Source of the DNA: Ilex aquifolium
Lineage: Eukaryota > Streptophyta > Magnoliopsida > Aquifoliales > Aquifoliaceae
Direction: 5' to 3'
Assembly (NCBI GenBank): GCA_951799425.1
Contig: OX637398.1
Coordinates: 15,658,270 to 15,722,269, forward strand
DNA length: 64,000 bases
Made by a program: the position numbers and the translations under genes. Shown here one piece after another: positions 1-56,459 of this stretch; position 1 is the first letter of the stretch, and each line of letters begins with the position of its first letter. The notes below the pieces were generated by a model. It searched no databases. It was not told the DNA's origin and saw only the letters and a program-made list of their open reading frames with translations.

Positions 1-88
1 CCATTTCCAATAAAAGCCAACGATAAGTTTTTCCATCTCAGTTTTTTCAATAAGTTTGTGACTACAAGAAGTAGCTAAAAAAGCCAAT

Positions 89-391
89 GATGAGCTCCTA
101 AGCTCATAAAAACTAAGATGAGCTCTTCAGCTCATAAACATAAGATGAGCTCTTCAGCTCATGAACATAAGATGAGCTCCTAAGCTCATAAAAACTAAGA
201 TGAGCTTTTCAGCTCATAAACATAAGGTGAGCTCCTCAGCTCATAAAAACTGAGATGAGCTTTTCAGCTCATGCATGAGCTTAAGATGAGCTCCTCAGCT
301 CATGAAAACTAAGATGAGCTCTTCAGCTCATAGAATCTAGATGAGCTCTTCAGCTCGTAGAATCTAGATGAAATTCTCAGCTCATGAATCC
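89..391. repeat. Tandem repeat of a GAGCTC palindrome unit, 11 copies
   Basis: Eleven units of 27-28 bp (one is 31) begin at 89, 117, 144, 171, 199, 226, 254, 285, 313, 340 and 367. Each holds a near-palindrome of the form TGAGCTCNTCAGCTCA, so every unit can fold on itself. Spacers alternate between AAAACTAA and AACATAA types. The array lies downstream of the antisense gene at 551-1725, where its 3' untranslated part or terminator would be. Confidence 0.9.
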
Positions 392-550
392 ACAGAAAAC
401 ACTCCAGCCCACGAGTATACAAAGAAACAAAGGAAAACCTTGTCAAAACCAAGATTCGCAGTCGTAAACATTCATGGAAGAAAAATACAAAAGTGACATA
501 AGAGCCCTGTAGTTCATCAGACAAAACAAGGTACAAGAAAAGAAAAGTTC

Positions 551-1725
551 CTAGTCCTTCCCAAGCTGCTGCTTCAGCTCAACAACTTCTTCCTTTAGGC
601 GGGCATTCTCCTCCCTCAGCTCGTCTCTTTCCTTTTCCACCTCCGAAAGCATGTTAAGGAGTTTTTTCCCAGCTGAGGAGAACAAAACTATACCGAAGGA
701 GGAACCAGATGAAGGAGAAGAGGATCCACCCCTCCTGCACTTCCTTGAAGGCGCGCCAACATCCCCTTCGTCATTGGAGTCGGAAGGGGAGGTCCAAGGA
801 GAATCTGGGAAGAAAGAAAACTCCAGAGCAGTTGTTTCAGCACTAAATAAGTAAAGGTTTTCGGGCGTCACCAGGTCTGAAAAAGGCATAGGATCAACAT
901 GGATTATTCGCTCGATGTTCATCATCTCCACCAAGTCCAGGTCGGGGGCACTTGCACAACGGAAACATAATAAGAACAAACTTTCACAGGATTTAGCCAA
1001 GTCAACTCTTCCTGAACATACCTGTATGGGAGAAGCTATCCCAGGAGCGTGGAATTCTAGTCTCTGAACAGCGCTGCTCGGTGGACCTCCAAGAGTTTCT
1101 GGACGCAAAAAAAGAAGCGTCAAGACCACCCTTCAAGAAGGGAGGGAAGGTCAAGAACCAGGGGGCGCAAGTGGAAGTGCCTCCACCGAAAGAAATTGAA
1201 GCAGGGGAGTTCATCTTCTTCGATCTCATAGAGGTACAGGAACTCGGCAATAGTAGGAAACTCACTATTACCGTGTAAACGCTAGAAGGGGAAGAAACTG
1301 ATCATAGTAGCCCAACCTCTGGGAGAAAGACGAGAAGGGCACAAACCGTAGTAAGCAAGGACCCGCCCGAAGGAAGGATGAATGGGAAGACGAAGGCCAA
1401 TCTCAAAGGCACCTTCAAAGATGCAAACCTCTCCTAGAGGAAGAAAGTTGCAAGGCTCATCAGAAGTTAGGACTCGCAGAGTTAAGTCTATAGGAAGATG
1501 AAATCGCCTGCTGATTTCATCCAGCCCAGAAGGAGTAATCACGGAGGGAGCCAAGTAATGGGATTTCCATCTCAAGTCAAGACCCGCAGAAGCACGCTCC
1601 TGGAAAAGAGAAGAGGATGGAGCAGCCATTAGAAACGCCGAAGAAAGGAGCGCAATAAAGCAGGAACGTGATCTCCAAGATTCAAGAAAAGACTCTAAGA
1701 TCTTTAGGCTATGGAGAAAGTCCAA
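551..1725 (-). pseudogene. Antisense accessory gene of element A, distal copy (PF04195-like)
   Basis: Minus-strand coding pieces of an accessory gene carried by the LTR element. The 5' piece (about 1725-1282) contains the motif FEIGLRLPIHPSFGRVLAYY, typical of the Transposase_28 'putative gypsy type transposon' domain (PF04195), in which a hydrophobic L(R/P)FPIHPF-like stretch recurs. The 3' piece (about 1129-551) is acidic and Ser-rich and ends in a short coiled coil (LLNMLSEVEKERDELREENA) before the stop. A GT-AG intron is plausible between the pieces, as these genes are usually spliced. The biochemical role of the family is not established; despite the name it lacks a recognised transposase active site. 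It is treated as a fossil and appears broken or spliced in several places. Confidence 0.55.
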
Positions 1726-2205
1726 GAAATATGAAAACTTTAAAGAATCCTGAATTTAAAGGGGCAAGAAGTACAAGGAAACGAAAAGACTTCCCTCAAC
1801 TCCACAATCATTGCAACGGTTACAAATTTGGAAGGTAGGTGGGCGCTCGCAACATTAATAAAGCATTTAGGTCTAGCTCAACCAGACTAACGAACCCAGG
1901 TCGATTCTCTGAGCTCGAAGTTATTCAGGAATGGATCGAAGCACAATCAAAGTTAGTTCAAGAGTGAGCCTCTTGAGGACCTCAGATTTCTTTAGTCTGA
2001 GGTCAGCTCGAATGTATACACGGATCTGCTCAAAGCAATCTATCGCAAGACCTCGCTTGATTCCGTGGGAAAAATAGAATTGCTCTTCAGCCTCTCCGAA
2101 ACTTAACAACTTTGCTTCATGGAGAACTGAAGTTTTCCTCGAAGCAAGGGGGGGAAGGGAGTTGCAGAGTAAAACAAGCAAAACAATGCGCACAGAAGTA
2201 CAACA

Positions 2206-2285
2206 GCTCAGAAGGAAACAAGTTATAGTATTTAAGTCAGTTGGTGCTCAGAAGGAAACAAGTTGTAGTATTTAAGTCAGTTGGT
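2206..2285. repeat. 40-bp tandem duplication
   Basis: Two adjacent copies of a 40-bp unit beginning GCTCAGAAGG (2206-2245 and 2246-2285) differ at about one base. They lie between the two antisense accessory genes. Confidence 0.9.
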
Positions 2286-2350
2286 GTAGTGTTTACATCA
2301 GCAACTCAAAAAAAAAAACACACAACAACAAATTTCTTAAGTCAAATTTC

Positions 2351-5040
2351 TTAAGCCTGAGCAGAAGGAGAAATGGAGGGGTCTGGCAGTTCAGCATCTG
2401 AAGCTGTTGTTTTAGGAACATGAGGCGAGCTTGGTAGTTCGGCAGCAGAAGTTTTGGTGGATGAGTCCTCAGGTAGAATAGGGGCAGGGACCTCGACCCC
2501 AACTGTTGGCAAAGTCACTGCTAAAGTTGAAGCTAAGAGCTCGGCAGTGGTTGAAACAGTAGCAGGCGCAGAACCAAGAGCTGTAGGAATGAGTGAGGCA
2601 GACGAAATTTCTCGAGGCTGGACCTTGATTGAAGGAGCAGGCACCCCAGCACCTTCTAAGGCTGTCTCAGGGGCTGGAGGCGCCAAATTCAGTGTTGGGC
2701 ACCCCTAACCCCTCTTCGGGAGGGATTTCAAAATCAAAGTCTAGGTTAGGATATGTCTATTCAGCTAAGTCCTAGAAAGCAAGCTACCTTATGGCCCATT
2801 TGGTGGTAACATTGTCTTTCAGCTGATCAATCAGTTCATCCTTCTGTTTGACGAGGGCCCTCTGCACCTCAAGCTCGCCTCGGAGAGTGTCGCTCACCTC
2901 AGCCAAGACTTCATACTCTCTTTTCATGACTCTGAAGGACTCCAAGGCCTCAAAGGTCTCCTTGCTGGCCTTAACCCAGGCATCAGTCTTAAGTCTGAGC
3001 TCTTCTTGGACCTTTTTGAGCTCATCCTTGGTCCTACTACCTTCTCCTTCAACCTCCTCCTTCTCGACCTCCAAACCCCTGATGGTAGAAGCTTGTTTCT
3101 CCATCTCCGCCTGCAGGTCCTGAACCTGAGCCTGAAGGTCGTTATTAGAAAAGGAAAGCTCAGATGTTTTGATCTCGAACGCCTTCGACATTTTAGCAGA
3201 GCTCTCCAGTTCTTGGATTCGGCTCAGTAGCCCCTTCACATGGATGGCCAGCTAGGAACAAATATGGCAAGAGGAGAAAATCAGCATAAAACAAAAGGAC
3301 AAGGTAAGAACAGAGCATGAAAAGGGGTGAGGACTTACCGCAGTAGTAAGGTTGAATTAACAGAAGTACCAAGCGACATAGTGGTAGCCCTCTGAACGTC
3401 AGAATCAGGGAGGATGGAGGAAAGGGCAGCAGCAGCAAGCTTCGCATTGTCGTGGAAAAAATCTTTGCTTGCCTCACCTTTGGGATGCTTCCCTTTCTCA
3501 GTCTTAGAACCTGTTTGTGGTAACTGAAAGAACTTCTCAGGTGGCTCAAAGGAAGTAGGAGCGGGCAGAACACGAGGGATCACTTCCAAGGCTCTCTCAA
3601 CCTCAGCCGGGGAAGGGGAGGTCGGATCTCGCTCATGAGCCCCTCTAGGGGCAGGCAGTGTCCCTTGGGAAGAAGAGGTCTCTGTGACTTTCGGAGGACC
3701 CGATGGTGGGGCTAGAGCTACCTGAGTCGAAGTAGAAACAGTAGGGGACACACTCAACTTTGGCACCTTAGCAGAGGAAACAACGCCGCTGCCTGTCCCA
3801 ACCTCCACTTTACGTTTACTCCCACAACTGTCTTTCTTTAGCAGATTCACCTTTGCCTAAAGTTCCGCTACAGAGGGCTTCATCGAGGAAGAGCCTAAAA
3901 AAAACTCAAGACAAAGAGTACAAAATATATATATATATATATATATATAAAGCATGAGGGGAGAAGGGATAAAAGTTGAAAGTAGTGCCACATGCCACTT
4001 CTTCAGCTCCAACAACAGAGAGGGGAACAGGGGTCTCAATCCTAACCTCGGGGGAGCTGAACCCGAGCGCTACCAAAACCTGAGGCTTGATGAGCTCGAA
4101 TTATTTCTCTGAATCGCAATGCTCCAGACTCAGTAAGACCCGACTATCCGCAGCGCTGAGGTCAGGTCGAGCACCTAAGGAGCAAAACAAAGTGAGTGCG
4201 ATCAGGTCAGCGAGGCAGGCTATACAATTGCTCAGACAAGGACTTACCCAAGTTGTCGGGGACAGACCAGGCTCGGGGAACTGGAAGAGTATCCGTGCTG
4301 TCGGTAGGGTTGTATTCCCAATGTCTACCCCATACGAAGAAGAAATATTTTTTCCAACCCTTGTGGGAGCTCGGGAGGTTGATAATAATAACCTTAGTTT
4401 TCACCCATTTAGAAAGGTATAGAAAACCGTCGAAAGGAGTATACTTAACATTGAAAAATTTCATGAGTAAAGAAACGGTGGGAATCCCAAGTTTGTGTTT
4501 CTTGAAGAAAACAAGAAGACCCACCAGTATACCCTAGAAGTTAGGGGAAATCTGAGCCGGGCAGACGTTAAAGTGCTGCAGAACACTCTTGATAAAAGGG
4601 TGGATGGGAAAGCGAAGGCCGTTCTCAAAAGCAGCCGCAAAAAAACAGACCTTTTTGGGGATTGGGGAGGCGTAGCGGGTATATTCGTCAGGACTCCAGA
4701 ACTGAACTCCCAGTGGGAAACCAAATCGACCGGCTAGAACCTTCATATGGGAAGAGGAGACCTCGCTGGGACCCACGAGCTCTGCAGCTCTATAGGCAGC
4801 CTCCTCAGCACCACCAGAAATCCCTATGCCACTCACCTTGGCTTTACCTTTGTGGGGATTTTTGGATTCTGGGGGGGACGATGAGGGAGGCTCCTCTGTA
4901 TTTCCCTCTACATCGGTAGACTCGACACCTGGAAATTTGTCAATCTCATCACCTACATCTCCTAAGTCAGTATCATCCCCGGTAGACCTGTCTCCCATCA
5001 AAGAAATAGATGAACCCGTAGCCTCAGAGGAAGCAGACAT
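2351..5040 (-). pseudogene. Antisense accessory gene of element A, proximal copy (PF04195-like, coiled coil)
   Basis: Minus-strand gene-like tract upstream of the 3' LTR and antisense to it. From its likely start (ATG at 5040, MSASSEATGSS) it shows an acidic Ser/Pro-rich N-terminus, then the PF04195-type core with FENGLRFPIHPFIKSVLQHF (about 4610-4550), a basic Ser/Thr/Pro-rich stretch (3850-3335), a long coiled coil with heptad pattern (3239-2784), and a Pro/Ala/Ser-rich tail (2686-2351). This order of conserved core followed by coiled coil is common in plant proteins annotated as putative gypsy-type transposon proteins; function unknown. Pieces lie in different frames, consistent with introns, breaks or both. 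An AT microsatellite sits at 3924-3949. It is treated as a fossil. Confidence 0.6.
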
Positions 5041-5502
5041 GACTGGACAGGAGAAAAGAATTCTAAAGGATCTGTAAAGGGGGGGAACCTCCGAAAAACA
5101 CTCTCTTAAGGTCGAGGGAGCAAGGCACCAATGACCTATAACGAAAATCCTAGCCGTACAATAAGGGTCCAAAAAGAGGGGGAGACGGGACAAGGAATAA
5201 CCTCGGTTCCTAAAGTAGCAGAATTGAAAATTCTAGAAATGCAATAACCACCTCAGATTCAAGGGATCCAGAACGAAGAAACACGTAAGGGACAGGAAAC
5301 GTACCTAATCAAGGGCGAATGGCAAACCAAAACTCGAAGCAGGAAACAAAGAGCAAGCCAATTCAAGGAAGAATGATACTTAGCGAAACCCTAAGATCTC
5401 TAGTAGGTTGGGGAAAACTAGAAATTGCAAGGAAGAAGAAAGTGAAAAGCTTGGGGGGGAAAGTTCAAAGGGTGAAATGAGCTGTTTCCCATCAGTGCAG
5501 AG

Positions 5503-5513
5503 GCATTTAAAAC
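5503..5513 (-). promoter_or_regulatory. Weak TATA-like box for the antisense gene
   Basis: On the minus strand the sequence reads AAAGTTTTAAATG about 465 bp upstream of the ATG at 5040, followed by a pyrimidine-rich leader. It sits between the accessory gene and the LTR, where a private antisense promoter would be expected. The match to a TATA box is poor, so this is only a candidate. Confidence 0.25.
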
Positions 5514-5697
5514 TTTTGGTACGTGGACCTCGAAAGTGGAGAACGTGCATGGAAAAAGAGGAAAAAAATGATTACCCAAAACCGTCATAAAAACCTGTTC
5601 GTGGGCAAATTGAGGTCAGCGCATGGAGGTCTACCTCGATTCAGCTTCAGCTTAGCCCCTGTCCGAGCTCACTTGGGCCAAGGGCTGGGGGGGCAAC

Positions 5698-6240
5698 TGA
5701 TGATACCTGGGGTGGATTTTAAATAAGTATGAGCTCGAGAAGTGAGGTCAGACAGGGAGGTTAGGTATGTCACCCAAAACTCAGCGGGTCAAACCTCGAA
5801 TTCCCCTCAGATGAAACAATAGATGAAGTACGGAGGTGACAGCTGGTTGATGGCAGATACCCTCGGAGTAATTAAAGGCTATAACCAAGGCATAAAACTC
5901 TCAACCAAGCGAGATCCTCTCCCAAAATTAAGGGAAGTCCAGCATATGAAAGGCGAAGATCTCGCTGCAAGTCCCTTCAAGTCAGGGGTTAGACTATAAA
6001 TACTTTACAACGCCTCCATTAGTGGGGCAATAAAAAAAATTGTAACAAAAACTATCTGTAAACCAGAATCACCTAGAATAAAGACTACTAGAGGAAGAGA
6101 CTCCATTCACAGAGTGGACTAGCCGAGCTCCCGAGCTCGGTGAACCACTATACTTTCACTTGTGTCAGGATTTGCAGCAGCTCTTTTTATTCCTTAAATT
6201 AAGAATTCTCTGACCACGAGATTCATAACCTATCCCAACA
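5698..6240 (+). repeat. 3' LTR of element A
   Basis: Begins TGATGATACC directly after the G-rich tract GGGCTGGGGGGGCAAC and ends ...ATCCCAACA. Inside are TATAAATA (about 5995), AATAAAG (about 6077) and a 3' GT-rich stretch, as in an LTR with U3, R and U5. The right boundary is set only by the CA dinucleotide because no second LTR lies in the window. Confidence 0.6.
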
Positions 6241-6368
6241 CCACCACTTTGATTCCCTCAAACTGCTCAGTCGCATAATTTACACTGTTAGAATCAGTGG
6301 TCAACACGACTTTATCTTTGCAAGTGACTGCCCTCGGGGTCCACTCTTCGGCATGCTCAGCCTAGAGA

Positions 6369-7597
6369 TTAGTAGTAGGGGGTGGTGGGGTTGTGGGACA
6401 AGATGACGAGTTGGAGAGACTCGGGAGTCATGATAACATTTGGACCTTCACTCTTGGGTAAGATCCTCTTCTCAGCCTCGGCATTGACCACGTCGAGGGG
6501 ATTCAGGTTGGCTTGGAGGTAGATTCTACGTTGGCAGGGACGGCGGGGGCAATTGTTGCTATTAACGTTGATGTTGTTGGGAAGGGACAGTGGTGGCAAC
6601 TCAGGAAGTTTCACTGGGCCCAGAGGTGACTAATCACCGAGCTACAACTGCGGCCTCTAGTCTGTCGACAGTGATTCTTGGCATCTGAAACATGTCTGAG
6701 TCAGAAGAAACAGTGAGAGAGGCCTTAGAATCTTAGTCGTGGGCCTTCTTCTAGGTTGGCGTCTTCGTCTTTTTCTTGTCCCTAAGATTGGTCGGTCCAA
6801 ATGGAAAGATCAAAAGCTTCTAGGACTTGGGAGGAATGCGTATACCCTGGTCTATATGCCAGTAGCACGTGGGCGGCCCGGGCAAAAATGTCTTTCCACT
6901 TATACTTCCACACTTTAAGGATATCCCCGAAGACTATAATAAAACTCAATGGCTGAGCGGCTTCCCTCTTGTACCCTTCATCTACATAGAAAGAAATATC
7001 AGCACTTGAATTATCACCCGAGTAAGATAGGTGACGTAATGGAAAACTACGTAGCTGACATCCTCCTTTCCTTGGGGGTAGTAGAGGCCTTCATACTCGA
7101 GGTTCATCACCCTTTTCCATCTCCCATCGATCATGATGAGATCTTTGGTGTATCACTTGTTCGGGTCAGGCATGTGGGTCACCTAGTACATTGAGGGGTC
7201 CCAAGCCTTCAAGTAATACTTTTTGTTGCTAGCTAGCTTCATATTGTAATAGATCAAAATCTCATCTACACCTAAGTTCACCCCGAGCAGGGAGTTCAAG
7301 GCAACTACGCCTAGGGAAAAGTCTAAAGTGCATAAGGAACCTCAGAAGAAGGGGAGCAAGGGGGAACCCGATTCCCCCTTCCATGATCACCTTGGTTTGG
7401 AAGGGCATGAACTCAAGAAATCTCGAGTCTTCCCTAAGAAACTTGGGATCAAAAACAATGGTATAAACATCCTCTAGGATTTTATAGGTTGACCTAAAGT
7501 CATCTAAAAGGGTTTTGGTCACCTGGGTTTTCCTAAGCTTGCCTTCTTTTCTGGGTCTGTCGACCCCCGACACATTCACTCTATTGGTTCTGGCCAT
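6369..7597 (-). pseudogene. Antisense accessory gene of element B (PF04195-like)
   Basis: The likely start is the ATG at 7597 (MARTNRVNVSGVDRPRKEGK), a basic N-terminus. Residues 70-100 of that piece carry VIMEGGIGFPLAPLLLRFLM, a weak match to the conserved hydrophobic core of the PF04195 domain found in the two accessory genes of element A. A further piece at 6614-6369 is Pro/Asn-rich. It lies downstream of a good TATA box (7772-7781) and runs against the adjacent LTR. Function unknown. It is treated as a fossil with several breaks. Confidence 0.45.
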
Positions 7598-7771
7598 TGA
7601 AAACTAAGAAAGCGATAAAGGAGAATGGAAAAGTTATGGGAAATGATAAGGATCAAGTATACTTACAAAAATTGATGTTCAGTGTTTATCCTTGGCTAAA
7701 AGCTACTCCAGAAATAGAATGACTTGAGAGAGAGGATCATCTGAAGAGTCTCAAAACTAGGGATTCTTTCC

Positions 7772-7781
7772 CTATTTATAC
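7772..7781 (-). promoter_or_regulatory. TATA box of the antisense accessory gene of element B
   Basis: The minus strand reads GTATAAATAGGG about 175 bp upstream of the ATG at 7597. The leader between contains a donor-like TTTTTGTAAGTA, suggesting a 5' untranslated intron. This is the clearest promoter among the antisense genes here. Confidence 0.55.
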
Positions 7782-8013
7782 TACTCAAATGAGGGAGCGG
7801 TTACCGAAGAGGCAGGATAATTTATTGAAAAATCAAAAAAGGGAGGCAAACGTGCCTGTAACGACCCCCCAAAACAGATGCGTGTTCAAGAAGCCTCCAT
7901 TCCCCTTACACCAAGTTTTCCATGACGTAAGAAAACCAGAGGCTAGGAAAGTTAACGGAATGTGGGCGGCTCGCCAATCACAAATCAATATGTGGCATAT
8001 TTCAGGGGACAGA

Positions 8014-8762
8014 TGTGTCCCCCGAACTTCCATAGACATAGACCAAGTGACGAGCTTCCCCTAGACCAAGTGAATATGACCAGCAAGATGGTGAACATGT
8101 ACACAACTAAACCCGAGGATTGATTACCGTTCGAAGACGCGTCTCGTGCAGAGTGTTGATGTAACAAACAATCATTACCTTCACCAAAATTCAGGAATTA
8201 TGTCAGACAACTATAAAGATGGAGGCATGTCCCTTGCTGGCTAAGAATATCCCTTAGGGTATCGAATTGAATGTTCGACAAGAAATTATAAATGCTCAGC
8301 AATAGACTTCGAGTATTTGACGTAGAGCACTTGATGTTCGGGATGACATGGTGTTCAAGAGATGAGAAACCATAAATGCTCGGCATCACCCAGAATACAG
8401 TTCAGATTACGTCCCATCACTAGGCATTTATGAGGCATGACATAGAACATTAATTGTGCGCCTAGATGGTTGTAGTTTGTCAGGCCTAGGCTGTTAGCAC
8501 TCAAGTAGCTACCACGTCATCACATTTGAAGTTATAAATACATTAATGAAACATAACACATGTATGCATGATGAATTAGTTTTGCACTGTACACTTATCC
8601 TTTCAGCCTTGGGCACCAATTGACTTAAACATCGGATGAGTTAAGTTGGGTACACCCCTGATCCCTTTCTGACTTCATTCCTTGTTTTAGGAATCTCATC
8701 CAAGCTCATCTTGGGATAGACTATCTCAAATTATTGCAGGAAATCACCCCGTGCAAATACCA
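8014..8762 (+). repeat. Probable 3' LTR of element B
   Basis: The tract follows the G-rich TTCAGGGGACAGA, begins TGTGTCCCCCGAAC and ends near ...GTGCAAATACCA. It contains TTATAAATACA (about 8531) followed by an R/U5-like stretch ending in GGGTACACCCCTGATCC, the style of Tat-type LTRs. Both ends are estimates, as no partner LTR is in the window. Confidence 0.4.
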
Positions 8763-9622
8763 AAAAAAGTAGTAAGAGTTTTGATGTGCGTATGAGGATA
8801 AATTACACATTGACCTCTTTAACTATGACCATTTTTTTAAAATTGTCCTATCAACAATCATATTTTCATATTGCACTTTCAATTATGAAATTAGTTTCAC
8901 ATTGTTTCAATTATTAACATTCATTTCATATTTAACGAAAATCTATGTTATTTTGTCCTTAGAATTGTGTAATATTTTTCAGTTTGCATCGATAAAATTG
9001 AATTTTTTTTATCTAAAAAGATAATGGACGTTTAATTAGGGTAATATAAAATAATTCAAATAATTGAGAAGAAAATATAAAAAAATTAGTAATTCAAGAA
9101 GCAAATGAAACAAATCCATATTTTAGCATATCAAAGTATAATTTTTCTTGAGTATAATTATTGAGTAATACTAGATTGACCAAATAAGGGACAAAAAATA
9201 TGACCTAAATAATCATATTGATGTTTCTGGTCCTATTTTTATACATTTAAATTTTAAATTTTTTTATTATAATAATATCACATCATTTAATTTTTTTTTA
9301 TTTTTTTTAGTCAGTTTAACATTAATGATAATTATTCTTTGTACCTGGTGAATATAGGGACACGGGAACTCTTAGCAAAAAATTAATGCGTAGCATTTAA
9401 GGCATAGAACGGTTGGGGCGTGGGCTTCCGTGCGAGCTCAGCTTCGACAATGCGTGACGCTAGTCTAGGAGTCAACTTGCATTGAATGGTTGCTATGTGC
9501 CCCTATAGCGGGGGATAAGGTGTTCATTTGCTAAACCAACCTCATTTTGGTGCACGTGACGTCACGGGCTGTTAGCTAAAAAGAAACACCATTGGGGCAC
9601 GTTTAGTGAAACCATTTTTTAT
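8763..9622. other. AT-rich intergenic DNA
   Basis: No gene or clear mobile element is seen. A less AT-rich island at about 9355-9600 contains CACGTGACGTCAC (9553-9565), which joins a G-box (CACGTG) to a GACGTC core, both plant bZIP-type sites. No gene start lies nearby to give it a job. Confidence 0.5.
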
Positions 9623-12242: not shown

Positions 12243-13806
12243 CTAGTTAATAAAAAAAATTATCAATAATAAATATATTTATATTCACAGTCAAAATTAA
12301 GTCATAAATATAGAAGAGTGAAAAAAAAATTTAAGCACTAGTTATAGTGGGAGTGAGGGGTGGTAGTTGTGGTGAGCGACAATGGTAGTGATGGGAGACG
12401 GTGATGGTTGTGGTTGATAGCGAAGACTGTGGTGATGAAGATAGTCATGAGTGACAATGGTGATGGTGGTGGTAGTGGCAACTATGAGTGACAGCGGTGG
12501 TAGTGGTAGCCATGAGTGACGACGGTGATGGTGGTGGGTGGCGATGGCAGTGGGCGACGTTAATAGTGGTTGATAGTGGTAGTGGTGGGGCGACAATAGT
12601 GGTGAGTTCTGACAATGGTTGTGGTGGTTGACAACGGGTGTTTCTAGGCGACAATATGATGGGTGGTGGCGAATGGTGGTGGTGGTGGTGGTGGTGGTGG
12701 TGGTGGTGGTGGGGGTGAGTGACAGTGGGTGATGACAGTGCTGGGTGATAACGGGTGGTGGTGGTAAGTGTGGTGGGGGTGGTTGATAGTAGATGGCGAC
12801 GATGATGAGTGATGATGGGTAGTGATGGTGGACACCAATGGTAGTAGTGGGTGCTGGAGCTAGGCGACGGTAGTAATTGGATGATGGTGGTAATAGTAAT
12901 AAATATAAGAATGAGATGACGATGGTAGTGGGTGGTGGCAGTGGACAACGGTGGTAATAATCGGTGGTGGGTAGCGATAGTGATGGTAGTGGTGGCAGTG
13001 GCGATGGCGGTGGCGGTGGGGTAGTGGGGTAGTGGGGGTGGGGGTGGGGGTGGGGCAGTGGCGATGGTGATTGTCGTGGGGGTGGTGGTGGAGCGGTAGG
13101 GGTGATGGTGGTAGAGGTGATCGTGGGACAACGGGTGTGGTGGGGGTAGTGATAGTAATAGTGGGGATGATGGGGGTGGTGGTAGGGTGGTGACAGTGGT
13201 AGTGGTAGCGTGCGGGGTGGTGGTTATTGTTGTGGCAAAGGTAATAGTGAGGTGGCGACGGCGAGGGTGGTGGTGGGGGTGGTAGGGTGGCAACATCGAT
13301 GGTGGTGATGGGGTAGTGGTGTGGCGATAGGGGTGGTGGTGTGGCGATAGGGGTGGTGGAAGGGCGGTGGGTGGGGTGGTAGGGGGCGGTGGTGGCGACG
13401 GTAGTGATGGTGGTGGTTGTGGCAGAGGTAATGGTGAGGTGGCGGCGATAGTGGTGGTGGTAGTGGTGATGATGTCGCAGTGGTGATGGTGGTGGGGGTA
13501 GTTGTGGCGGTGGTGGTAGTAGTGGTAGTGGTGATGGTGATAGGGCGATGGGGGGTGGTGGTGGTGCTATTCTAAAAACTATTTTTTTTAAAAGTACTTA
13601 TGAGAAGTTATAAGTCCTATAATCATTTTGAAAAAATCACCTCAAACACATCTTTAGGCCCATATTTTGTATATTAAATTTGGAGTGTTAATATTAGCCG
13701 TCGGATTAACTTTAAAGTACAATTTAAAGAGATCTCAACCGCGAAAAATAAAATTCATTTTGTTTATTTTTTGGGATTTGAATTGTATTGTACTTTATTA
13801 TATAGA
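12243..13806 (-). mobile_element. Helitron-like non-autonomous element, copy 1
   Basis: Read on the minus strand, the element starts TCTATATAATAAAG after an A (13807 on plus is T) and ends CTAG followed by T (12243-12246). TC...CTRR termini inserted between A and T are the Helitron signature. The flanks of the core are shared with the copies at 28009-29546 and 29547-30103. Almost all of the interior is a GGTGGT-type minisatellite. The 3' hairpin seen in copy 3 is missing here. No Rep/helicase gene, so non-autonomous. Confidence 0.6.
12350..13565. repeat. GGTGGT/GATGGTG minisatellite, 1.2 kb
   Basis: The plus strand is almost free of C and consists of GGTGGT, GGTGAT, GGTAGT and GGGGGTGG words for more than 1.2 kb. 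Minus-strand frames through it read as His/Pro/Thr-rich protein; these are composition artefacts. The G-runs (for example 13034-13058) could form G-quadruplexes. Confidence 0.9.
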
Positions 13807-15417: not shown

Positions 15418-16229
15418 TTAGGGTTTACCCAAACATAATATATTTTGGAACAAGGTAGTATTATCCAGAATGGCAAGACATGATGATTCCCTAGCAATTA
15501 GATATAAATTAGAGTCAAAGATTACATATAAATAAACCCTACTGGTATCCCCTTGTTTTCCCGTAGGCAATTTAACATATATAGTAAGTTCTATTTCCTC
15601 GAAACCCAATCCCAATTCCACAGCGTACACAGTACGTAGAAAAGAATAAGTCGCATAGGAATCCAATATAATTCGAGCCCAAAAATTGTAGAGGAGAGCA
15701 ATATCTTCCACCACGGCGTTGGAGGCATCTTCCTCCGGTTGAGTCAAAGCAAAAACCCTTGCTTGATTGGCGCCGCCGGGGGCTTGAGCTTGTACAGTCT
15801 CTGTGGTGGTAGTGGCTGTCGTAGCAGTGGCCTGTTTGCATTCACTCGCCCAGTTGTTTGGTTGGTCTTGGTAGAAAGTAATGGACAATTATCTATGAAG
15901 TGCCCAACACCTCCACAGGCAAAACATCGGCGTGCATCCATGCCTATTCTCTCTGGTACGCCTCCCGCTCCTCGAGCTATCGGAGGTCTCTGCTGTGCTG
16001 GCCTTTGTAGAGGTGGCTTGTTTGCTGGTACTTGCTCGAGTGCTTGCTTGGTCATTGGGGGAAACGAGGGACATCTATGTTTGAAGTGCCCATACTCTCC
16101 GCATGCAAAGAATTGGCGCGAGTCCATGCCTGCTCTCGTCTGAGTAACTCCATCTTCTCCAACTGTCTGAAGTCTTTGCTCAACCGCGTCCACGTCCACG
16201 TCCACGTACACGTCCACGTCCACGTTCAC
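15418..16229 (-). pseudogene. Gag zinc-knuckle and protease-like fragment (Tekay/Del-like)
   Basis: The minus-strand frame at 16229-15744 has two CCHC zinc knuckles, FFACGEYGHFKHRC and CFACGGVGHFIDNC, as in the nucleocapsid part of Gag, which binds the element's RNA. An overlapping frame at 15888-15418 has ARVFALTQPEEDASNAVVED, the linker before the aspartic protease in Tekay/Del elements, then protease-like sequence. The N-terminal VDVDVDVYVDVDVD run is coded by a CCACGT hexamer repeat (16186-16230). It is a fossil fragment of a larger Gag-Pol, broken. Confidence 0.7.
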
Positions 16230-16525
16230 GAGATCTTGTATTCTCGAATTCAGAGTGTAACCAGCTTCTCGCGGATGGAAGGCCTCAAATCTTGTTCAAA
16301 GCATTTAGCCCTCCTTGCCTCAGTGACCACAAACTTGATTGCGTAGCGAGACAACTCATCGAATCCGAACAAATAATTAACCCTAACCTAAATATACAAT
16401 AAATCTAACATATCTGATAAGCACATAACTTCAAACAAATGCAAGCATACGGTTCCTTCAACCTAGTCCTACCTTTCCAGTGGTAATCCATAACCTACAG
16501 CTCCCATGTAAGACTTAAAGCCTAA

Positions 16526-16541: not shown

Positions 16542-18899
16542 TGTAATGCCCCAAAAACCACCTTGGACGGCATTACATTCTAAAACCATTTACATAATGA
16601 GAGCACTAAGATAATCCATCAATAAGAAAATTTTTCCATTCATCATCCATAGAATTTACAATATCATCCCAAAAGAATAAGCAGAACAATGACATTTACA
16701 TTTCCCAAAGAAAACATTAACTATTATAGCGCAGCGGAAATTACAAAAGAGATCTAGACTATACAGTGTTTCAAAAGAATATTCTAGTCTAGAACAAAAG
16801 TAAACGACATCTCTAGATGTCCCACTCGGGATCCAAGTATCCCTCTAGTGAAACCTCTCCATGACCCGACTCGTTAGCACCGAGCTCATCCTCTAGCACA
16901 ACATCTGAAAAATGTTCAACTGTAGGGGGTGAGCACGAAGCTCTGTAGAAAAATTCTTCCAAACCCGAACAAGGTTTAGAAAACAGATAAAAACCGGTCG
17001 GTATCATTTCGTAAATAGCATATATCAATTTTGAAGGAAAAACGGGACAATTTAAATAGATCTCAAGTTTAAGCCGTAACAATAATCAAGTAAAAGGTTA
17101 AGGTAAATTTCATAGCAATATACCATTTTCAACTTTTAGCCATTTAGGAAGGGCGCCTTCCGATGCATTGTCCCATACCAATGCACCGGCCAAGGCGGTC
17201 CAACCCATCATCCCATTTATATTGGTTCATCCCCGTACCATGTATGTTGATTGCTTCTCATGAATCTACCCAACGATTATACCTAGTCCACCAATCACAA
17301 TCACAATCACAATCACAAACACTTTAGGAAAGGGCGTCTACCATCCCAATGACAGTGACGAGTCCCTTCCCAGGAAAAATATACCATCATTTGTTCGAAC
17401 TCCAGTGAACGATAGTGGTCGCATTACCAAATGACAACCCACCACAAGTGTTAGGAAACCATCTCACCCCCACTAGGATAGACTAACCTCTAACACTCTA
17501 CGGCATCTCTCGAAGGCAATCCAAATCCATCACAACAACCATACCAATGAGGAAACCAAAATATTCTCAATTCACCAACAATTCCAAATAACTACAAAAT
17601 CCACAATTTCTCATTTTACAAGCATATCTCAAAATCCCCAAATTAAGCATGTGACATTTTCAATAACCAACCAAGAAAAATGCAAGAGATCATAACAATA
17701 TCATTTTATTACTCAACACAAAACACTATGATTTTGAAATCAAGAATAAAGGAAGAGTTCAAGAGGAAAACTCATCACTCTTGAAAACTAGGGTTTTTCA
17801 AACAAAAGAGGGATTTCATGGGTATACAACCCTAACTTTGTGTAAAACATGTTAACCATTGCAAGAGAACCAAGAAACAATGAACCCATAGCAAATACAT
17901 ATGATTAGGAGTCAAAACATATATATATAATAACCCTAACATCAATGAACAAGAATGGAAGAAAACCCCTACCTTGGTGTTCTTGAAATCTAGGGTTTGA
18001 TCTTGAATCACTCTTAAATCCTTTGTTTTTCCCTTTTGATCTTGTGTTTTCTCCTTCTTTATTCTTTTCTAAGACTCTCTCTAGGAGTCCAAGAGGTGTG
18101 GGTAAGGGTGTAGTGAAAGTGTAGAAGAAGAGAGTAGAAGAATGGTGTTCTTGAGGAATTTCGGTTTTGATCTCTATAAGGGGTAACTCTCTCAAGATCT
18201 TTGTGTTTTTCTCTCATTTTCTCTTCTCTTAGGGCTCTAAGATATTTGGGGTGAGAGTGGGATGGAAGAATGGGTCAAATGAGGCTTAAAATGGTGTTTT
18301 AAAACACCAAAATCCTGACTTTTACTGTGCCAAACTTCGGGCGTACCGGTACGGTTTAGCTACTGGTTCGGGCGTACCGGTACGGTACGGTACCGGTACT
18401 GTGTTCCGGTACACTTTGGCTACTTTGACTTCCAGGGCAGTTTTGACCCATTTAGAGGTTGAATTGGAAAATCTTCATGAAATACACTTTTGTAGCCCTA
18501 GATGTCTACTATCTACTGTCCAAATTTCAGATCAATTGGATATAAGGATAAAAAGTTATAACCTAAATATTAGAAGGTGTCCCAACTCCTTTTTACCCAA
18601 ATTCTCTCTAAGTGTGTTTTCACTCCGGAATACTTCCTAGCTTCCAATACACCCCATATTACCTCTCCCAATGTTTTTCGACCTTCCGGATTCAATGGAG
18701 AACTTATTTTGACCTAAAAATATTTAAAAACTTCCATAATCCCTCTTCTCAAGTTTACACACCTTCGAAACTCAAACTTCCCAATTCATTTGTCTCCCTA
18801 GTATTTATTCCTACTATTACTACACATATCCACATTTTTTACAACAATTATTTACTATATATCTATATACATATATAAAATAAAATGCGGGGTGTTACA
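16542..18899 (-). repeat. 5' LTR of the Tekay-like remnant, 2.36 kb
   Basis: The plus strand begins TGTAATGCCCC and ends GGGGTGTTACA, so on the minus strand it opens TGTAACACCCC and closes GGGGCATTACA. It directly follows the primer binding site. Such long LTRs are usual for Tekay/Del. A cluster of GTACCGGTAC palindromes lies at 18341-18411. Confidence 0.8.
18341..18411. repeat. CGTACCGGTACGG palindrome cluster in the LTR
   Basis: GGGCGTACCGGTACGG occurs at about 18339 and again at about 18370, followed by overlapping GTACGGTACCGGTAC words. The self-complementary core could form hairpins or act as a protein site within U3. Confidence 0.8.
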
Positions 18900-19320
18900 T
18901 CCTCGGCGCTTCGGAGAGAGTCAACTCCCACCTCATCCTTTGACCGAATCTTATGGAGAACACCGTAACTACCTCATCCGTTGAGAAGAAGTCGCTTGCT
19001 CCATTAGATTAGCCATTTAGTTACTATTAAGTCGCCCTAATCTGTTAAGAGGTGACTATAAATTATAAGCCCCACCAACACTTGAGCGGCAGATCACACC
19101 CAGTCGAGCACATCTCTGTAACTCTCATAGCTTGTATCTCTTTGCTCTCACTACACACCTTACAGTAATAAAATACTAGACGACCGTAGCCCTTCAAAGT
19201 GGACGTAGGTTACGTTGACCGAACCACTATAAATCCTTGTCTTCTCTCTCCCTACTTGACTACTGTATTTATTACTTTTTACTTGATAGATGGTGTGCAA
19301 ACCCAATTTGTGCATCATCA
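18900..19320 (+). repeat. 5' LTR of the Tat-like element, right piece
   Basis: Resumes homology with the 3' LTR at GAGTCAACTCC (about 18917 against 22359) and runs to GTGCATCATCA. It contains TATAAATTATAAGCCCC (about 19050) and AATAAAATAC (about 19168), the U3/R features, and ACCGAACCACTATAAATC in U5. Confidence 0.8.
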
Positions 19321-19340
19321 GTTTGGCGCCATCTGTGGGA
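19321..19340 (+). other. Primer binding site-like sequence
   Basis: GTTTGGCGCCATCTGTGGGA follows the 5' LTR end directly. TGGCGCC is shared with the tRNA-Asp primed sites common in Tat/Athila elements; the exact tRNA is inference. Confidence 0.6.
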
Positions 19341-19381
19341 AGGACAGAATTCTCACCTAAACACTTCCTTTGTTGAGCCTA

Positions 19382-20430
19382 TGGTGATCACCACCAGATT
19401 CATGAATCAGACTGAAGATAATTCACCACGAAAGGAGGAGGTTGCTCCTCCAACAACCAATCATGTTCCAAATGCACAGCAGATATTGGAGACAATGAAA
19501 CAACTCGTAACTCAGAATCAGCAGATCCTGCAACTGATGCTTGCTGGACAACAAGGAGGAGCATAGCCGGAGGACCTCAAGCCAGAGGAGCTCCGCGCCT
19601 TGGGCGTCAAGAAGCTCCCCACCTGGACGCCCCCTTGGGCACCCCATATAGGGGAGCCCCGGGCCAAAACCACGAGGCACCTTCACCTCCTCCTCAAACT
19701 CCCTCTTCCCATGGTGGAGACCCCCATTTTCAAGAGGATGGGGGTGAAAATCAAAGTGTGGAGCATGAGAGTCATTTCTATGATAATTCCAAAGGAGTCC
19801 CAAATCACTGGGACAAAAACATCAAAGAAATACAGAATCAACTGGGCGACGTCTTCAATGTCATGAAGGCACAAGGACCAGAAACCGTGGAGTACCTCGT
19901 AAGGCGAACTGACACACCTTTTGTGCCAGATGTGGTAGACTACCCTCTTCCCCAAAAGTCCAAAATGTCATTCGTCAAAATCTTTGACGGCACAAAAGAC
20001 CCACTTGATCATTTTGAAACTTATAAATCGTTGATGCAGTTGCACAATGTTCTTGATAAAATCATGTGTAGGGATTTCCCGACTACCTTGAAGGGATCTG
20101 TCCGACAGTGGTCTGCCAAACTCATCCCAGTCTCCATAGGCTCCTTCGCCGGACTAAACAGATCTTTTTTGGCATAATTCATTGGCGGACGCCGCCACTA
20201 GAAGCCTGCCACCCATCTGCTCAGCAAAAAATAGGACTGGGATGAAAGCCTGAGAAGTTACCTCACTCGTTTTATTGAGGAGGTCCTTCACATTGAGGAG
20301 CCCGATGACAAGGTCGCCATGACCACTTTCTTGGAAGGCCTACGCTCATCTAGTTTTATCTTCTCAATGATGAAGCACCCACCAAAAAGAATGCCAGAAT
20401 TGTGTACAAAAGCTTAGAAATACATAAACA
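19382..20430 (+). pseudogene. Gag-type fragment of the Tat-like element
   Basis: The first frame (19382-19566) begins MVITTRFMNQTEDNSPRKEE and is Gln/Asn-rich. The next stretch (19635-20177) contains SFVKIFDGTKDPLDHFETYK, the start of the Retrotrans_gag domain (PF03732), and the following DNA encodes the end of that domain around YLTRFIEEVLHIEEPDDK (about 20258-20312). Gag builds the virus-like particle. No zinc knuckle or pol follows. It is a fossil with a few breaks. Confidence 0.65.
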
Positions 20431-20584
20431 CTAAGGATGTCACCAAAGCGAGGCGAGGTGAGCCCTCGCCGTCATCATCACCACCTACGCCCGACTCTAA
20501 AAAAAGAAGCCACAAAGGTACTAACAGATTTTGTGGCTGAGCTCACACCGCTTGAGGAGAGAGATTGTCAAGAAGACTCAACGT

Positions 20585-20775
20585 TAGGTGCCCAACACTG
20601 CGCCCAAGCCCAGGCGCCTAGCACCTAAGGTGCCCAACACCCAGCACCTAGGCGCCTAGCACCCTAGGCGCCCAACACCAGGTGCGCAGCCCCAGGCGCC
20701 CAGCACTAGGCGCCTAGCACCCAGGCGTAGAGCACCCTAGGCACCCAACCCAGGCGCCTAGCTCCTCAGCGCCCT
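20585..20775. repeat. GGCGCC-rich short tandem repeat
   Basis: CAGGCGCCTAGCACC and related 12-14 bp words are repeated about a dozen times. Similar GGCGGCGCC words recur in the LTR and interior of the related element at 62487-64000, linking the two. Confidence 0.85.
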
Positions 20776-20851
20776 CCTCATCTCAATCTATTGGAATGAG
20801 CCTTCGGCTTGGTGACCCTCCCATGGGCTAACCCTCAAATTCTATGCTCTA

Positions 20852-21350
20852 CTCTCAAGCAGGCAGCCTATCTCAAACTTAGCGGCTCTCTCGCTGGTCG
20901 CCAAAAAGCCTGGCCTCTGTTATGCTCTCAAGCAGGCAGCCTATATCTCCAGCTAAGCGACTCTCTCGCGGGTTGTCAAAAGCTTGGCATATCTCTGCTC
21001 TGCTCTCAAGTAGGCAACCTATATCTCTAGTTGAGCGGCTCTCTCGCAGGTCATCAAAAGCTTGGTCTATCTCTGCTCTGCTCTCAAGTAGACAACCTAT
21101 ATCTTCAGCTGAGCGGATCTCTTGCGGGTCGTAAAAAGCTTGGCCTATCTCTGCTCTGCTCTCAAGCAAGAAGCCTATATCTCTAGCTAAACGGCTTTCT
21201 CGCGGGTCGCCAAAAACTTGGTCTATATCTCCAGCTGAGCGGCTCTCTCGTAGGTCACCAAAAACTTGATCTCTGCTCTGGTCTCAAGTAGACAGCATAT
21301 ATCTTCAGCTTAGTGACTCTCTCATGGGTCGCCAAAAGCTCGGTCTCAAA
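20852..21350. repeat. About 78-bp tandem repeat, 6 copies
   Basis: Units start with CTCTCAAGYAGGCAGCCTAT at about 20852, 20925, 21003, 21081 and 21159, with a diverged one near 21277. The usual period of 78 bp equals 26 codons, and the minus strand stays open for 96 codons (21169-20879) repeating CLLESRAEI..AFDD.RESR. I see no independent sign that this is translated. Confidence 0.85.
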
Positions 21351-21679
21351 AGGTGTAGCTCTCTCACGAGCAATCCTCAGACTCTGTCTTTGCTCTCACA
21401 CAAGCAGTCTGCCTCTCTCTCTTTCCAGGTAATCATGTTAGATATTTTGATGTTGGAATAACATTATTTTTGTCATCTCTAGGCACGCTTTTGAAACTCA
21501 GGCCGTCTGCAACCCACGGGACTACATTAGATTGAATGTCAACAATCGGGCCTCCTCCATCCGGCACCACCGCCTCGTTGCCGCAACACTCCCATGCTTA
21601 ACACCTAGCGCAAACAAGGTCTGTCTGCACTTGTCCCCAAACAGCTCTCCTCCATCACGATTAGCAAAATCGCCAGCCA

Positions 21680-21990
21680 ACGACGTCCAGCACCATAGGC
21701 GCCTCTCCAGCAGCACCCAGCACCATAGGCGCTTCTTCAGCAGCGCCCAAAGCCATGGGCGCCCCTTCAGCAGTGCCCAGCGCCATGGACGCCCCTCCAG
21801 CAATGACCAGTGCCATGGGCTCCTCTCCAGCAGGGCCAAACACCACAGGGGCCAATCCATCAGCGCTTATAGCCCCTCCTACGTGCCCAGCCAGCACAGC
21901 AGCCCCTCCTGCGGCCCAGCCCACGCAGCAGCCCCTCCTACGCGCCCAGCCAGCACAACCGCCTCTCCTGCGCGCATGGCCAGCTCGCCC
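21680..21990. repeat. 30-bp GC-rich tandem repeats
   Basis: Units of about 30 bp with the form CAGCGCCATGGGCGCCCCTC are repeated from about 21690 to 21860, then shift to GCCCAGCCAGCACAGCAGCC-type units. Open frames on both strands here are Ala/Pro/Gly-rich and reflect composition. Confidence 0.8.
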
Positions 21991-22158
21991 ACCTCCAAAC
22001 GAGGCTCATAATATATCAAATCGAAACTCTCAGCGAACCCTAGAAGCATCTGTTTTGGCCTCCCGAAGTTTTTCCAGTTGTGCGTTCAACCGAAATTCAA
22101 ACTCAACCGAATGCCCTCCTCTCCAAGTTTCATTGGACGTAGGGCATTGGGGGGCAAA

Positions 22159-22763
22159 TGATGGACCAAGCCCAAGAACCCAACTCATGTTATAAGTCCG
22201 ATCTGAATTAATAGTCCAATTCTAAGAGATTCAACAAGTCCAGCCCAAAATGGTCCATGCCCGGTCAAGCTTATCAAGTTCGAGGAGCTACATCAAGTAG
22301 CTACATCAGTAGGGGAGCATGCAGAGTCATCCAAGATCCTCATCCTTGCCGCATTGGAAAGAGTCAACTCCGATCTCATCCTTTGACCAAATCTTATGGA
22401 GAGCACTGCAACTACCTCATCCGTTGAAAAGAAGTCGCCTGCTCCACCAGATTAGCCATTTAATTACTATTAAGTCGCCCCAATCTGTTAAGAGGCGACT
22501 ATAAATTGTAAGCCCCGCTAACACTTGGGGGGCATATCACATTCAGTCGAGCACATCGCTGTAACTCTTATAGCTTGTATCTCCCTGCTCTCACTACACA
22601 CCTTGCAGTAATAAAATATCAGGCGACCGTAGCCCTTCAAAGTGGACGTAGGTCACGTTGACCGAACCACTATAAATCATTGTCTTCTCTCTCCCTAATT
22701 GACTACTGCATTTATTATTGTTTACTTAACAAGTGGTGTGCAAACCCAATTTGTGCATCATCA
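22159..22763 (+). repeat. 3' LTR of the Tat-like element
   Basis: Follows the polypurine tract TTGGGGGGCAAA, begins TGATGGACCAAGCCC and ends GTGCATCATCA, 605 bp. The end motif and the ACCGAACCACTATA stretch are shared with the LTR at 62487-63347. Confidence 0.85.
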
Positions 22764-22771
22764 TATATATG

Positions 22772-23796
22772 GGAGAATTACACTTAGACCCCATGAGATT
22801 TGTCACTTAATCACTCAGACCCCCTGACATTTGAAATATTAGACACAGACCTCCTGAGGTTTGTGCAAGCGTAACACTTAGACCACTGCTATAAATATAT
22901 CCGTTAATAAATTACACTTAGACCCCCTGCAGTTTGTAGGTATATAATACTTGAACCCCTTAAGTTTAAAATATTATACTTAGACCAAAAATACTACAAT
23001 TAAAAATAAAATATCAAATATTTTAAATTTTAAAATCAAAATTCATGTTATATTGTATCATTTATTGAAATAAAATCAAAAATAAAAATTTAATTTTTTT
23101 CTTAAAAAATCGTAATTAGTATACAATTATATTGTCTATTGGAATTTAATTTGGTCGTTTAAATGACCAAATTAAAATATCAAACTACCCCAATTAAACC
23201 TAAAAGATATTGTGTCAATTACAGTTTGACTCATTGTTTAATTTTTTAGTTTTATTCTAACATATAGTATAATTATATATTAATTATGATTTTTTTTTAA
23301 AAAATTAGACTTTTATTTTTGATTTTATTTCAATAAATGACATAATAGAACATAAATTTTGGATGTAAAATTTATGTTCTATTATAAATGACTTAGACCC
23401 CTTATTTGATTTTTTAGTTTTATTCCAATAGATAGTATAATTGTATACTACTAATTACGATTTTTTAAGAAAAAAATTGAATTTTTAATTTTAATTTTAT
23501 TTCAATAAATGATACAATAGAACTTGAATTTTGGTTGTAAAATTTAAAATATTTGATATTCTGTCTTTGAATGGAGTATTTTTTTTCTAAGTATAATATT
23601 TTAAACTTAAGGGTCTAAGCATTATATAGTTACAAATTTCAGGGGGTCTAAGTATAATTTATTAACAGATATATTTATTACAATGGTCTAAGTGTTACGC
23701 GCGTACAAACCTCAGGTGTCTGTGTGTAATATTTTAATTGTCAGGAGGTCTAAGTGATTAAGTGATAAACCTCAGGGGGTCTGGGTGTAATTCTCC
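22772..23796. mobile_element. Fold-back TIR element, about 1.0 kb, copy 1
   Basis: The ends are GGAGAATTACACTTAGACCC and, inverted, GGAGAATTACACCCAGACCC. The inverted match extends hundreds of bases on each side of a short centre near 23180-23260, so the whole element can fold on itself. There is no transposase. It is flanked by TATATAT-type sequence, so a target duplication cannot be read. A copy in the opposite orientation is at 46565-47575. A Mutator-like class is likely but unproved. Confidence 0.8.
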
Positions 23797-28008: not shown

Positions 28009-29546
28009 TTAGAATTTACCATAAAGACATGGAGTAATAAAAAAAATAGTCAACAATAAACATATTTATATTCACACTCAAAATCAATTCACAAACATAG
28101 ATGAGAGAGAAAAGAATTTTAGCACTGATTGTAGTTAGGGTGAGCGGTAGTAGTGATGGTGGAAGACGATGATGGTTGTGGTGGGTGACAACGACTGTGT
28201 TGATGGTGACAACCATGGGTGCCAACGGTGATGGTGGTGGTGGGCTTTGGGTGTCGATGGTGGTAGTGGCAGTCATGGGTGATGACGGTGATGGTGATGG
28301 GTATGGATGGTGGTGGGCGACGGTGATAATGGTTGGCAATGGTGGTGGTGGTGGGCGATGACAGGTGCTTCTGGACGACAGTGTGATGGGTGGTGGTGAA
28401 TGACGGTGGTGGTGGCAGTGGTAGGTATGGTGGGGGTGGGTGATTGTGAGTGGCAGTAGTGGTGGTCGATGACGGGTGGTGGTTGTTGGTTATAGTAGGT
28501 GTGGTGGGGGTGGGTGACAATCGCTGACGACAACGATGGACGACGATAAGTGGTGATGGGTTGTGGTAGTGGGTAGCGGTGGGTGGTGATGGGCAATAAT
28601 AGTGGTGATGGGTTCTGACGGGGGGCGACGGTGATAGTGGGATGATGGTGGTAGCGGTAATAAATATAAAAATGGGATGATGATGGTGGTGGGTGGTGGA
28701 GATGGTGGTGGGAATGGCGGTGATGCAGTGAGGGGTGGGGTGAGGTAGTGATGGTGGTGCTGGTAGTGGTGATGGTCATGGGGGTGGGGGGTGGGCCGTT
28801 GGGGGTGGTGGTGATAGAGGTGATGGTGGGACATTGGCGATGGTGGTAGGGTGACAACAACAATGGTGATGGTGGGATTACAGTGGTGATGATAGTGCTA
28901 GGGGGCTGGTAGTGAGGATGGTGGTGGTGGGGTGGTGATGGGGTGGTGTTGGAGGGGTGGTGGCAATAGTGATGGTAGCAACAGTGGTGGTAGTGGGGAG
29001 GTGGTGATGGTGGTAGTTTTTGTGGCGAAGGTGGTGATGGGATGATGACAGTAATGAGGGTAACAACGATGGTGGTGATAGGGCAATAGTGGTGGTGGTG
29101 GTGGTTGTTGTGGCGGCGGTGGCGGTGGTGGTGGTGGTGGTGGTGTTGGGGTGGCGACAGTGGTAGTGGGGATAACGACGATGGTGGTGGTGGTGGAATG
29201 GCGACAGTGGTGGTGATAATGGTAATGGTGGTGGTGGTGAGGGTGGTGATGGAACAGTGGGGGTAGTGGTGGTGGTGGTGGGGTGGTGATGGTGGTGGTG
29301 GGGCGGTTTCAAAATACTACTTTTTTTTTTAAAGTACTTATGAGAAGTTATAAGTCTTATAATCACTTTTAAAAAGTCACATCAGACACACTCTTAAAGT
29401 CCTATTTTCCTTATTAAATTGAGGGTGTTAAAATTAGCTATCGAATTAACTTTAAAATAAAATTTAAAGTGATCTCAACCTCGAAAAGTAAAAGTCATTT
29501 TGTTTATCTTTTGATATTTAAATTATATTGGACTTTATTATACATA
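28009..29546 (-). mobile_element. Helitron-like non-autonomous element, copy 2
   Basis: The minus strand 5' end is TATGTATAATAAAGTCC, aligned with TCTATATAATAAAG of copy 1. The plus-side left end is GGAGTAATAAAAAAAATAG, matching GGAGTAATAAAATAAATG of copy 3, with a decayed hairpin and CTAA-like terminus at 28009. Both flanks of the minisatellite match the other copies. It abuts copy 3 without any spacer. Confidence 0.55.
28130..29306. repeat. GGTGGT/GATGGTG minisatellite, 1.2 kb
   Basis: Same kind of C-poor GGTGGT array as at 12350-13565, with a different internal order. Minus-strand His/Pro/Thr-rich frames are artefacts of composition. Confidence 0.9.
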
Positions 29547-37756: not shown

Positions 37757-37987
37757 ATGTGTTTTAAAAATGTATCCAACTCCTTGTTTTATTCAAATAT
37801 CACAATAGTCTTGACTGCAATAACAGGAATGAAAATGGTTTTGAAGAAGAAATGGTATGTTGTGTTCAATGGCCGAAGGGTAGGAATAGTTGATACTTGG
37901 CAAGAATACCACGGACTTGTCACTGGATATCCCGGTGCATTGTACAAATCGTTTTCATCATACGAAGTTGCACAAGAGGCAGCTTAA
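37757..37987 (+). pseudogene. RNase H1-type hybrid-binding (viroplasmin, PF01693) exon
   Basis: KKKWYVVFNGRRVGIVDTWQ followed by GLVTGYPGALYKSFSSYEVA matches the small domain at the N-terminus of eukaryotic RNase H1, also found in caulimovirus protein VI, which binds RNA-DNA hybrids. Trp, the GRRVGI turn and the YKSF strand are kept. An acceptor-like CAATAACAG precedes the likely first codons at 37828. The catalytic RNase H domain is not seen; the copia element begins right after the domain, and the DNA beyond it (44448 onward) does not resume as RNase H. It may be a captured host exon or an old element gene. Confidence 0.65.
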
Positions 37988-38437: not shown

Positions 38438-38439
38438 TA

Positions 38440-38767: not shown

Positions 38768-38803
<36 letters not shown>

Positions 38804-56425: not shown

Positions 56426-56459
56426 ACCCTCTCTAGCTGCTGAACGCAATTACCGTGGG

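Follow-up and report, generated by a model that had tools for sequence, protein, structure and literature searches.

Decayed antisense accessory genes, probably of Retand/Tat-type retrotransposons, at one end of a 64,000-nucleotide window of Ilex aquifolium

What are three genes on the minus strand doing next to sequences that look like plus-strand LTRs, and to which kind of genetic unit do they belong? The question is raised by the first few thousand bases of a 64,000-nucleotide stretch of contig OX637398.1 of Ilex aquifolium, the whole of which is referred to here as the window. The genes had been interpreted, in a first-pass annotation made from the letters only, as antisense accessory genes sharing a PF04195-like core and belonging to Tat-like elements. 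The analysis described below very largely agrees with this interpretation as to the kind of gene, insofar as antisense PF04195 accessory genes of a plant Ty3/gypsy Tat-type element are concerned, with the qualification that the third gene can be assigned to this kind by pairwise tests only. On the evidence of the sequence, the genes are likely to be accessory genes of the TRP28 (PF04195) kind, antisense and now decayed, that belonged to two plant Retand/Tat-type Ty3/gypsy retrotransposons whose pol lies outside the window.

Homology and decay of the three genes

All three genes lie on the minus strand, gene 1 at 551..1629, gene 2 at 2351..5040 and gene 3 at 6233..7597, and the minus-strand coding pieces which had been placed here were borne out as open frames. 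The proposal that all three possess a PF04195-like core held for two of them; indeed, with respect to the Pfam curated cut-off of 26.2 bits for PF04195 (TRP28, Transposase_28), an HMM search yielded matches above the cut-off for gene 1 at 1282-1755(-) (E 8.2e-11, 42.4 bits) and for gene 2 at 4534-5232(-) (E 1.5e-8, 35.2 bits), whereas the six stop-free pieces of gene 3 gave no PF04195 match with E up to 10, their sole Pfam match being DUF7602 (E 0.08, below cut-off). Genes 1 and 2 are paralogues, with 36% identity across 81 amino acids (E about 3.5e-11); over their 76 aligned codons, read in the minus-strand frame, agreement is found 39, 50 and 34 times at positions 1, 2 and 3, respectively, uncontrolled counts whose order would be that expected for a coding frame.

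The relationship of gene 3 to the other two is seen by pairwise shuffle tests only. Its first 111 residues, compared with genes 1 and 2, give z values of 5.7 and 6.6 in local and of 4.9 and 7.5 in global alignments, the score being reached by 0/1000 shuffles in each of the four tests, and among the 272 ORFs of the window having at least 60 residues gene 3 ranks third, behind genes 1 and 2 (summed score 105, the next being 67). HMMER by itself gives E values of 0.06 to 1.4 for the link between gene 3 and genes 1 and 2, which fall short of significance. The motif common to the three is GGIGFPLAP in gene 3 and IGLRLPIHP and NGLRFPIHP in genes 1 and 2.

Gene 1 consists of the TRP28 region followed by a short C-terminal, coiled-coil-like tail, and gene 2 of a TRP28 exon, a linker, a long coiled-coil exon (2784..3251, minus strand) and an Ala/Pro-rich tail. 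The long coiled coil was called by eye and from matches to coiled-coil families below their cut-offs, the only kind of match that NCBIfam returned; the exon is Smc-like in this same sense, its match to SMC_prok_B having an E of 3.9e-4 and 18.3 bits where the cut-off is 567. No gene of the three is intact, gene 1 being broken by frame shifts and several stops, gene 2 by a stop at 4534-4536 within the TRP28 region and by further stops later, and gene 3 by frame changes inside its TRP28-like region. As judged from their reading frames, none would now be able to make a full protein.

Further searches were aimed at relatives and at structure. The viral contigs contained no relatives of gene 2, of gene 1 or of their alignment, the genome contigs none of the gene 1/gene 2 alignment, and the plasmids none of the first exon of gene 2, which was the only query in that tblastn search; this absence from microbe and virus collections is expected, the family being a plant one. 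No solved structure matched the first exon of gene 2 with E up to 1, and the AlphaFold prediction of the TRP28 region from three sequences of the window was poor and unusable (mean pLDDT 40.8). No Rfam family was matched anywhere in the window when gathering cut-offs were applied. The Pfam matches to DivIC, HALZ, hAT, DUF7602 and others were rejected as being below cut-off, and a bacterial promoter scan, meaningless for plant DNA, was set aside.

The elements that appear to carry the genes

Two stretches on the plus strand have been read as 3′ LTRs. LTR A (5698..6240), the putative 3′ LTR of element A, begins with TGATGATACC after a G-rich tract and has a TATA box, TATAAATA, at 5995, its end having been set by eye; LTR B (8014..8760), the putative 3′ LTR of element B, begins with TGTGTCCCCC, contains TATA-like words at 8212, 8287 and 8533 and has an uncertain end. 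Their apparent lengths are 543 and about 750 bases. The start word TGATGATACC was thus found at 5698 as the first-pass annotation had it, whereas the same word, which it had also assigned to 8014, is replaced there by TGTGTCCCCC; each of the two start words occurs once in the window. Since blastn of 1-9000 versus the window returned no second copy of either LTR, each is inferred from a single copy. As had been claimed, the genes are antisense to the plus-strand LTR-like starts at 5698 and 8014, the orientation of genes 1 and 2 being judged against these starts and not against gag-pol; no RT domain or pol of element A or B is present within the window, and the 5′ end of element A, together with its pol, lies outside it.

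In the Retand lineage a tandem array lies between pol and the 3′ LTR in about half of the clusters, and an array is indeed found here at 89-388 (plus strand), GAGCTC-rich and made of 9.6 copies of a 27-base unit, which is probably part of element A. The word GAGCTC occurs eight times in the array (82-390, 309 bases), once in 1756-2340, seven times in gene 2, once in 5041-5697 and three times in LTR A, then not at all in 6241-9000 and eight times in the whole of 9001-64000; it is absent from gene 1 and from 391-550. Small as they are and uncontrolled by shuffling, these counts have a distribution that would join array and LTR A in a single element A, gene 1 and 391-550 excepted. Genes 1 and 2 probably sit in this one element, as the first-pass annotation had proposed in speaking of two stacked genes, a conclusion suggested by the words of GAGCTC type on both flanks of gene 1.

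Gene 3 belongs to a separate element with a different LTR start. Its last open frame (6233-6361, 43 residues) stops 8 bases inside the presumed edge of LTR A, which would be consistent with A having inserted into element B's antisense gene, so that the two elements may be nested; a frame of 43 residues such as this is also common by chance.

The remainder of the window holds other repeated sequences. An LTR pair at 18898-19320 and 22341-22763 (89.6% across 423 bases) encloses an ORF at 19422-20177 which we take to resemble a Tat gag fragment; this ORF has no Pfam match, no TRP28-like frame ranked within 18898-22763, and the whole is possibly a non-autonomous element. A second pair, at 37967-38437 and 43980-44447 (93.0%), delimits an element spanning 37967-44447 whose frames presumably resemble those of a Ty1/copia element, and a third, at 54432-55301 and 59881-60769 (91.3%), contains gag-pol-like frames at 55871-59890 which we assume to be Ty3/gypsy-like. 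Two CCHC zinc knuckles (PF00098, E 4.7e-8) are encoded by a minus-strand frame at 15744-16295, which is likely a retroelement gag remnant. Two AT-rich copies of about 1 kb, built of inverted repeats and placed in opposite orientation about 24 kb apart (22770-23781 and 46573-47576), are possibly a foldback or MITE-like element, while the related GGT-rich low-complexity stretches at 12342-13597 and 28016-29381, with their long minus-strand Pro/His/Thr frames, are probably simple-sequence DNA rather than genes. A tandem array lies at 33945-34770, where a 280-base unit is present in 2.9 copies with 93% matches.

Signs of splicing and of minus-strand promoters

A likely intron of gene 2 lies at 4175..4247 (minus strand, 73 bases) and runs from a GTAAGT donor to the acceptor CTCCTTAG: the reading frame reaches PRAWSVPDNL and the donor at 4247 and, past the acceptor at 4175, resumes in phase as G-ARPDLSAADS. 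Gene 1 has a possible intron at 951..1021 (minus strand, 71 bases), with the donor CAG/GTATGT and a weak AAG acceptor. Its frame containing PRSWDSFSHT terminates at this donor, at 1021, and the distance from the W to the donor is six residues plus one base, as in gene 2, so that the two genes have a strong donor in the same place and in the same phase. After the possible acceptor at 951 gene 1 reads APDLDLVEMM, in a frame that is out of phase with the PRxW frame. When genes 1 and 2 were compared by shuffling, the score was reached 5/2000 times for the stretch after TRP28, 21/2000 times for the PRxW stretch (three frames were tried, of which this was the best and the others gave 273 and 1475) and 76/2000 times for the post-intron exon, the homology of the latter being weak.

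Other candidates are found in genes 2 and 3, all on the minus strand. Immediately before its coiled-coil exon gene 2 has a possible 87-base intron (3252..3338, GTAAGT to TTCCTAG), across which the frame is off by one, and a possible intron in its 5′ leader (5043..5304) ends 3 bases ahead of the ATG; a fourth, near 2790-2760, was dropped as too short. In gene 3 a possible 63-base 5′-leader intron (7604..7666, GTAAGT to CTTAG) is preceded by an antisense TATA box, TATAAATAGG, at 7771..7780, and the word TATAAATA is expected 0.034 times on the minus strand of 391-8013.

Strong minus-strand donors number four against 2.10 expected, a count reached in 82/500 simulations, and because there is no overall excess of donors the argument for splicing rests on their positions. 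A search for TATAWA motifs ahead of genes 1 and 2 gave none, the words present there being weaker TATA-like ones at 5511, 1860 and 1760, and downstream of these genes, on the minus strand, there is none of the poly(A) words AATAAA, AATAAT and AATGAA. The lack of a donor excess and the weak acceptor of gene 1 speak against splicing. On the other hand, given the donor position and phase common to genes 1 and 2 and the TATA box and leader intron of gene 3, the three look like genuine, spliced genes of the minus strand, and it is from these signals that we infer both the splicing and the promoters.

Known relatives, rival readings and possible function

How unusual is such a set of genes? A paired set had been thought less usual, a view not upheld by PMC11963269, which reports, for young, recently active Retand elements, antisense TRP28 ORFs in 61 of 63 clusters and 104 antisense ORFs over 600 bp, 57 of them with TRP28 and 11 with Smc domains; with 104 antisense ORFs among 63 clusters, more than one per element would be common. 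The same survey describes tandem arrays in 32 clusters, LTRs of 315-1,194 bp, a range within which both LTRs deduced here would fall, and a distance from pol to the 3′ LTR of between 2.9 and about 6.6 kb. Its elements resemble element A in having a PF04195 gene ahead of the 3′ LTR, on the strand opposite to gag-pol, together with tandem arrays and, in some cases, Smc-like domains, so that, in view of these published ORFs, arrays and domains, the genes of the window belong to a kind already described. What differs here is the presence of two TRP28 genes in an apparently single element and of likely introns, neither of which is mentioned in the available text, where the word "intron" occurs 0 times. 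Elsewhere TRP28 has been reported in 23% of Retand elements (PMC6317226), and PF04195 is more frequent than any other domain tabulated in a study of blackgrass circular DNA (PMC10606437).

Other systems offer partial parallels, as far as the available parts of the respective papers go. Maize Grande gene23 and rice RIRE2 are likewise antisense accessory genes with a promoter of their own, from which gene23 is transcribed, and the Grande protein is nuclear, but a single such gene is drawn per element, and the splicing of these antisense genes is described as still to be sought (PMC7264820). Silene Retand has two extra ORFs, ORF3 and ORF4, in one element; ORF4 carries PF04195 and both diverge fast between species (PMC11728184, PMC3290532, PMC7264820). 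In bean, an antisense ORF2 precedes the 3′ LTR in 15 Ty3/gypsy families such as pvRetro13, some with an SMC-type domain; unlike element A, these have one ORF2 per family in Table 2, and PF04195 is not named in the part available (PMC4093653). In the literature searched, which did not extend to the original descriptions of Grande, RIRE2 and Retand or to a 2011 survey on additional ORFs, there was no report of two TRP28 paralogues per element or of introns. The new details are modest, namely a paralogue pair in an apparently single element and signs of splicing, the backwards genes themselves being already known; what the window would add is the reading of TRP28 and coiled coil as exons of one spliced gene.

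The assignment of genes 1 and 2 to a single element has a serious competitor, in which gene 1 would be a remnant of another Retand element joined to A by nesting, deletion or recombination, two TRP28 genes never having been present in any one element. This is somewhat the less probable of the two accounts: it would explain why gene 1 and 391-550, unlike the rest of element A, are devoid of GAGCTC and why the two genes are merely 36% identical, and it gains from the position of the 5′ end and pol of element A beyond the window, but both flanks of gene 1 (the array and 1756-2340) have GAGCTC-rich words in common with gene 2 and with LTR A, and neither by eye nor by blastn within the window was an LTR start or end seen between 1629 and 2351.

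That the antisense frames matter only as RNA, pairing with the genomic RNA and feeding small-RNA silencing, the protein being secondary or absent, is unlikely. Double-stranded RNA has been suggested as a possible role in PMC7264820 and all three genes are broken here; yet conservation at the protein level across diverged copies and the codon-position pattern point to past selection on a protein, and the TRP28 domain occurs in 61/63 young clusters (PMC11963269). Far less probable still is that host genes, or fragments of them, were caught between LTR elements, for which the failure of gene 3, alone of the three, to match PF04195 could be quoted. Against it, two matches above cut-off are to a family which, according to PMC11963269, has no similarity outside transposable elements, and LTR-like starts lie just downstream on the plus strand.

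If the genes are indeed antisense accessory genes of two retrotransposons, how might they have worked? Upstream of its 3′ LTR, and next to a tandem array, element A would have possessed genes 1 and 2 as diverged TRP28 paralogues, and element B a more diverged TRP28 gene, gene 3, the possible site of insertion of A. In working copies RNA polymerase II would read each gene from its own minus-strand promoter, located between the gene and the 3′ LTR, and the minus-strand transcripts would then be spliced; as the introns are opposite to the strand of the genomic RNA, they would not be removed from the sense RNA and would be passed on whenever the element transposed. The TRP28 protein would enter the nucleus, bind DNA through the TRP28 region, for which DNA binding has been predicted (PMC11963269), and self-associate by means of its coiled coil, thereby tuning the transcription or the integration of its element. 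A mode of this kind, in which an accessory protein expressed from an antisense promoter within the element acts on DNA in the nucleus, has been put forward for the family in published work and is the most likely one; to the regulatory role itself, drawn from that work, we give slightly less than even weight. More doubtful, though still to be taken seriously, is the broader proposition that one Retand-type element bore two ancient, diverged, multi-exon TRP28 genes, the first short and the second extended by a long coiled coil, spliced from minus-strand promoters and having a conserved intron, and that the TRP28 and Smc ORFs recorded separately are often exons of single genes.

The copies present in the window are ordinary, decayed examples. 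The interest of the matter lies in the family, since TRP28 ORFs occur in almost every one of the recently active Retand clusters that PMC11963269 examined. If TRP28 and coiled coil are parts of one spliced protein, counts of single ORFs would be truncated, as would any construct based on a single ORF, and the full spliced protein would represent a more direct route to the function of TRP28.
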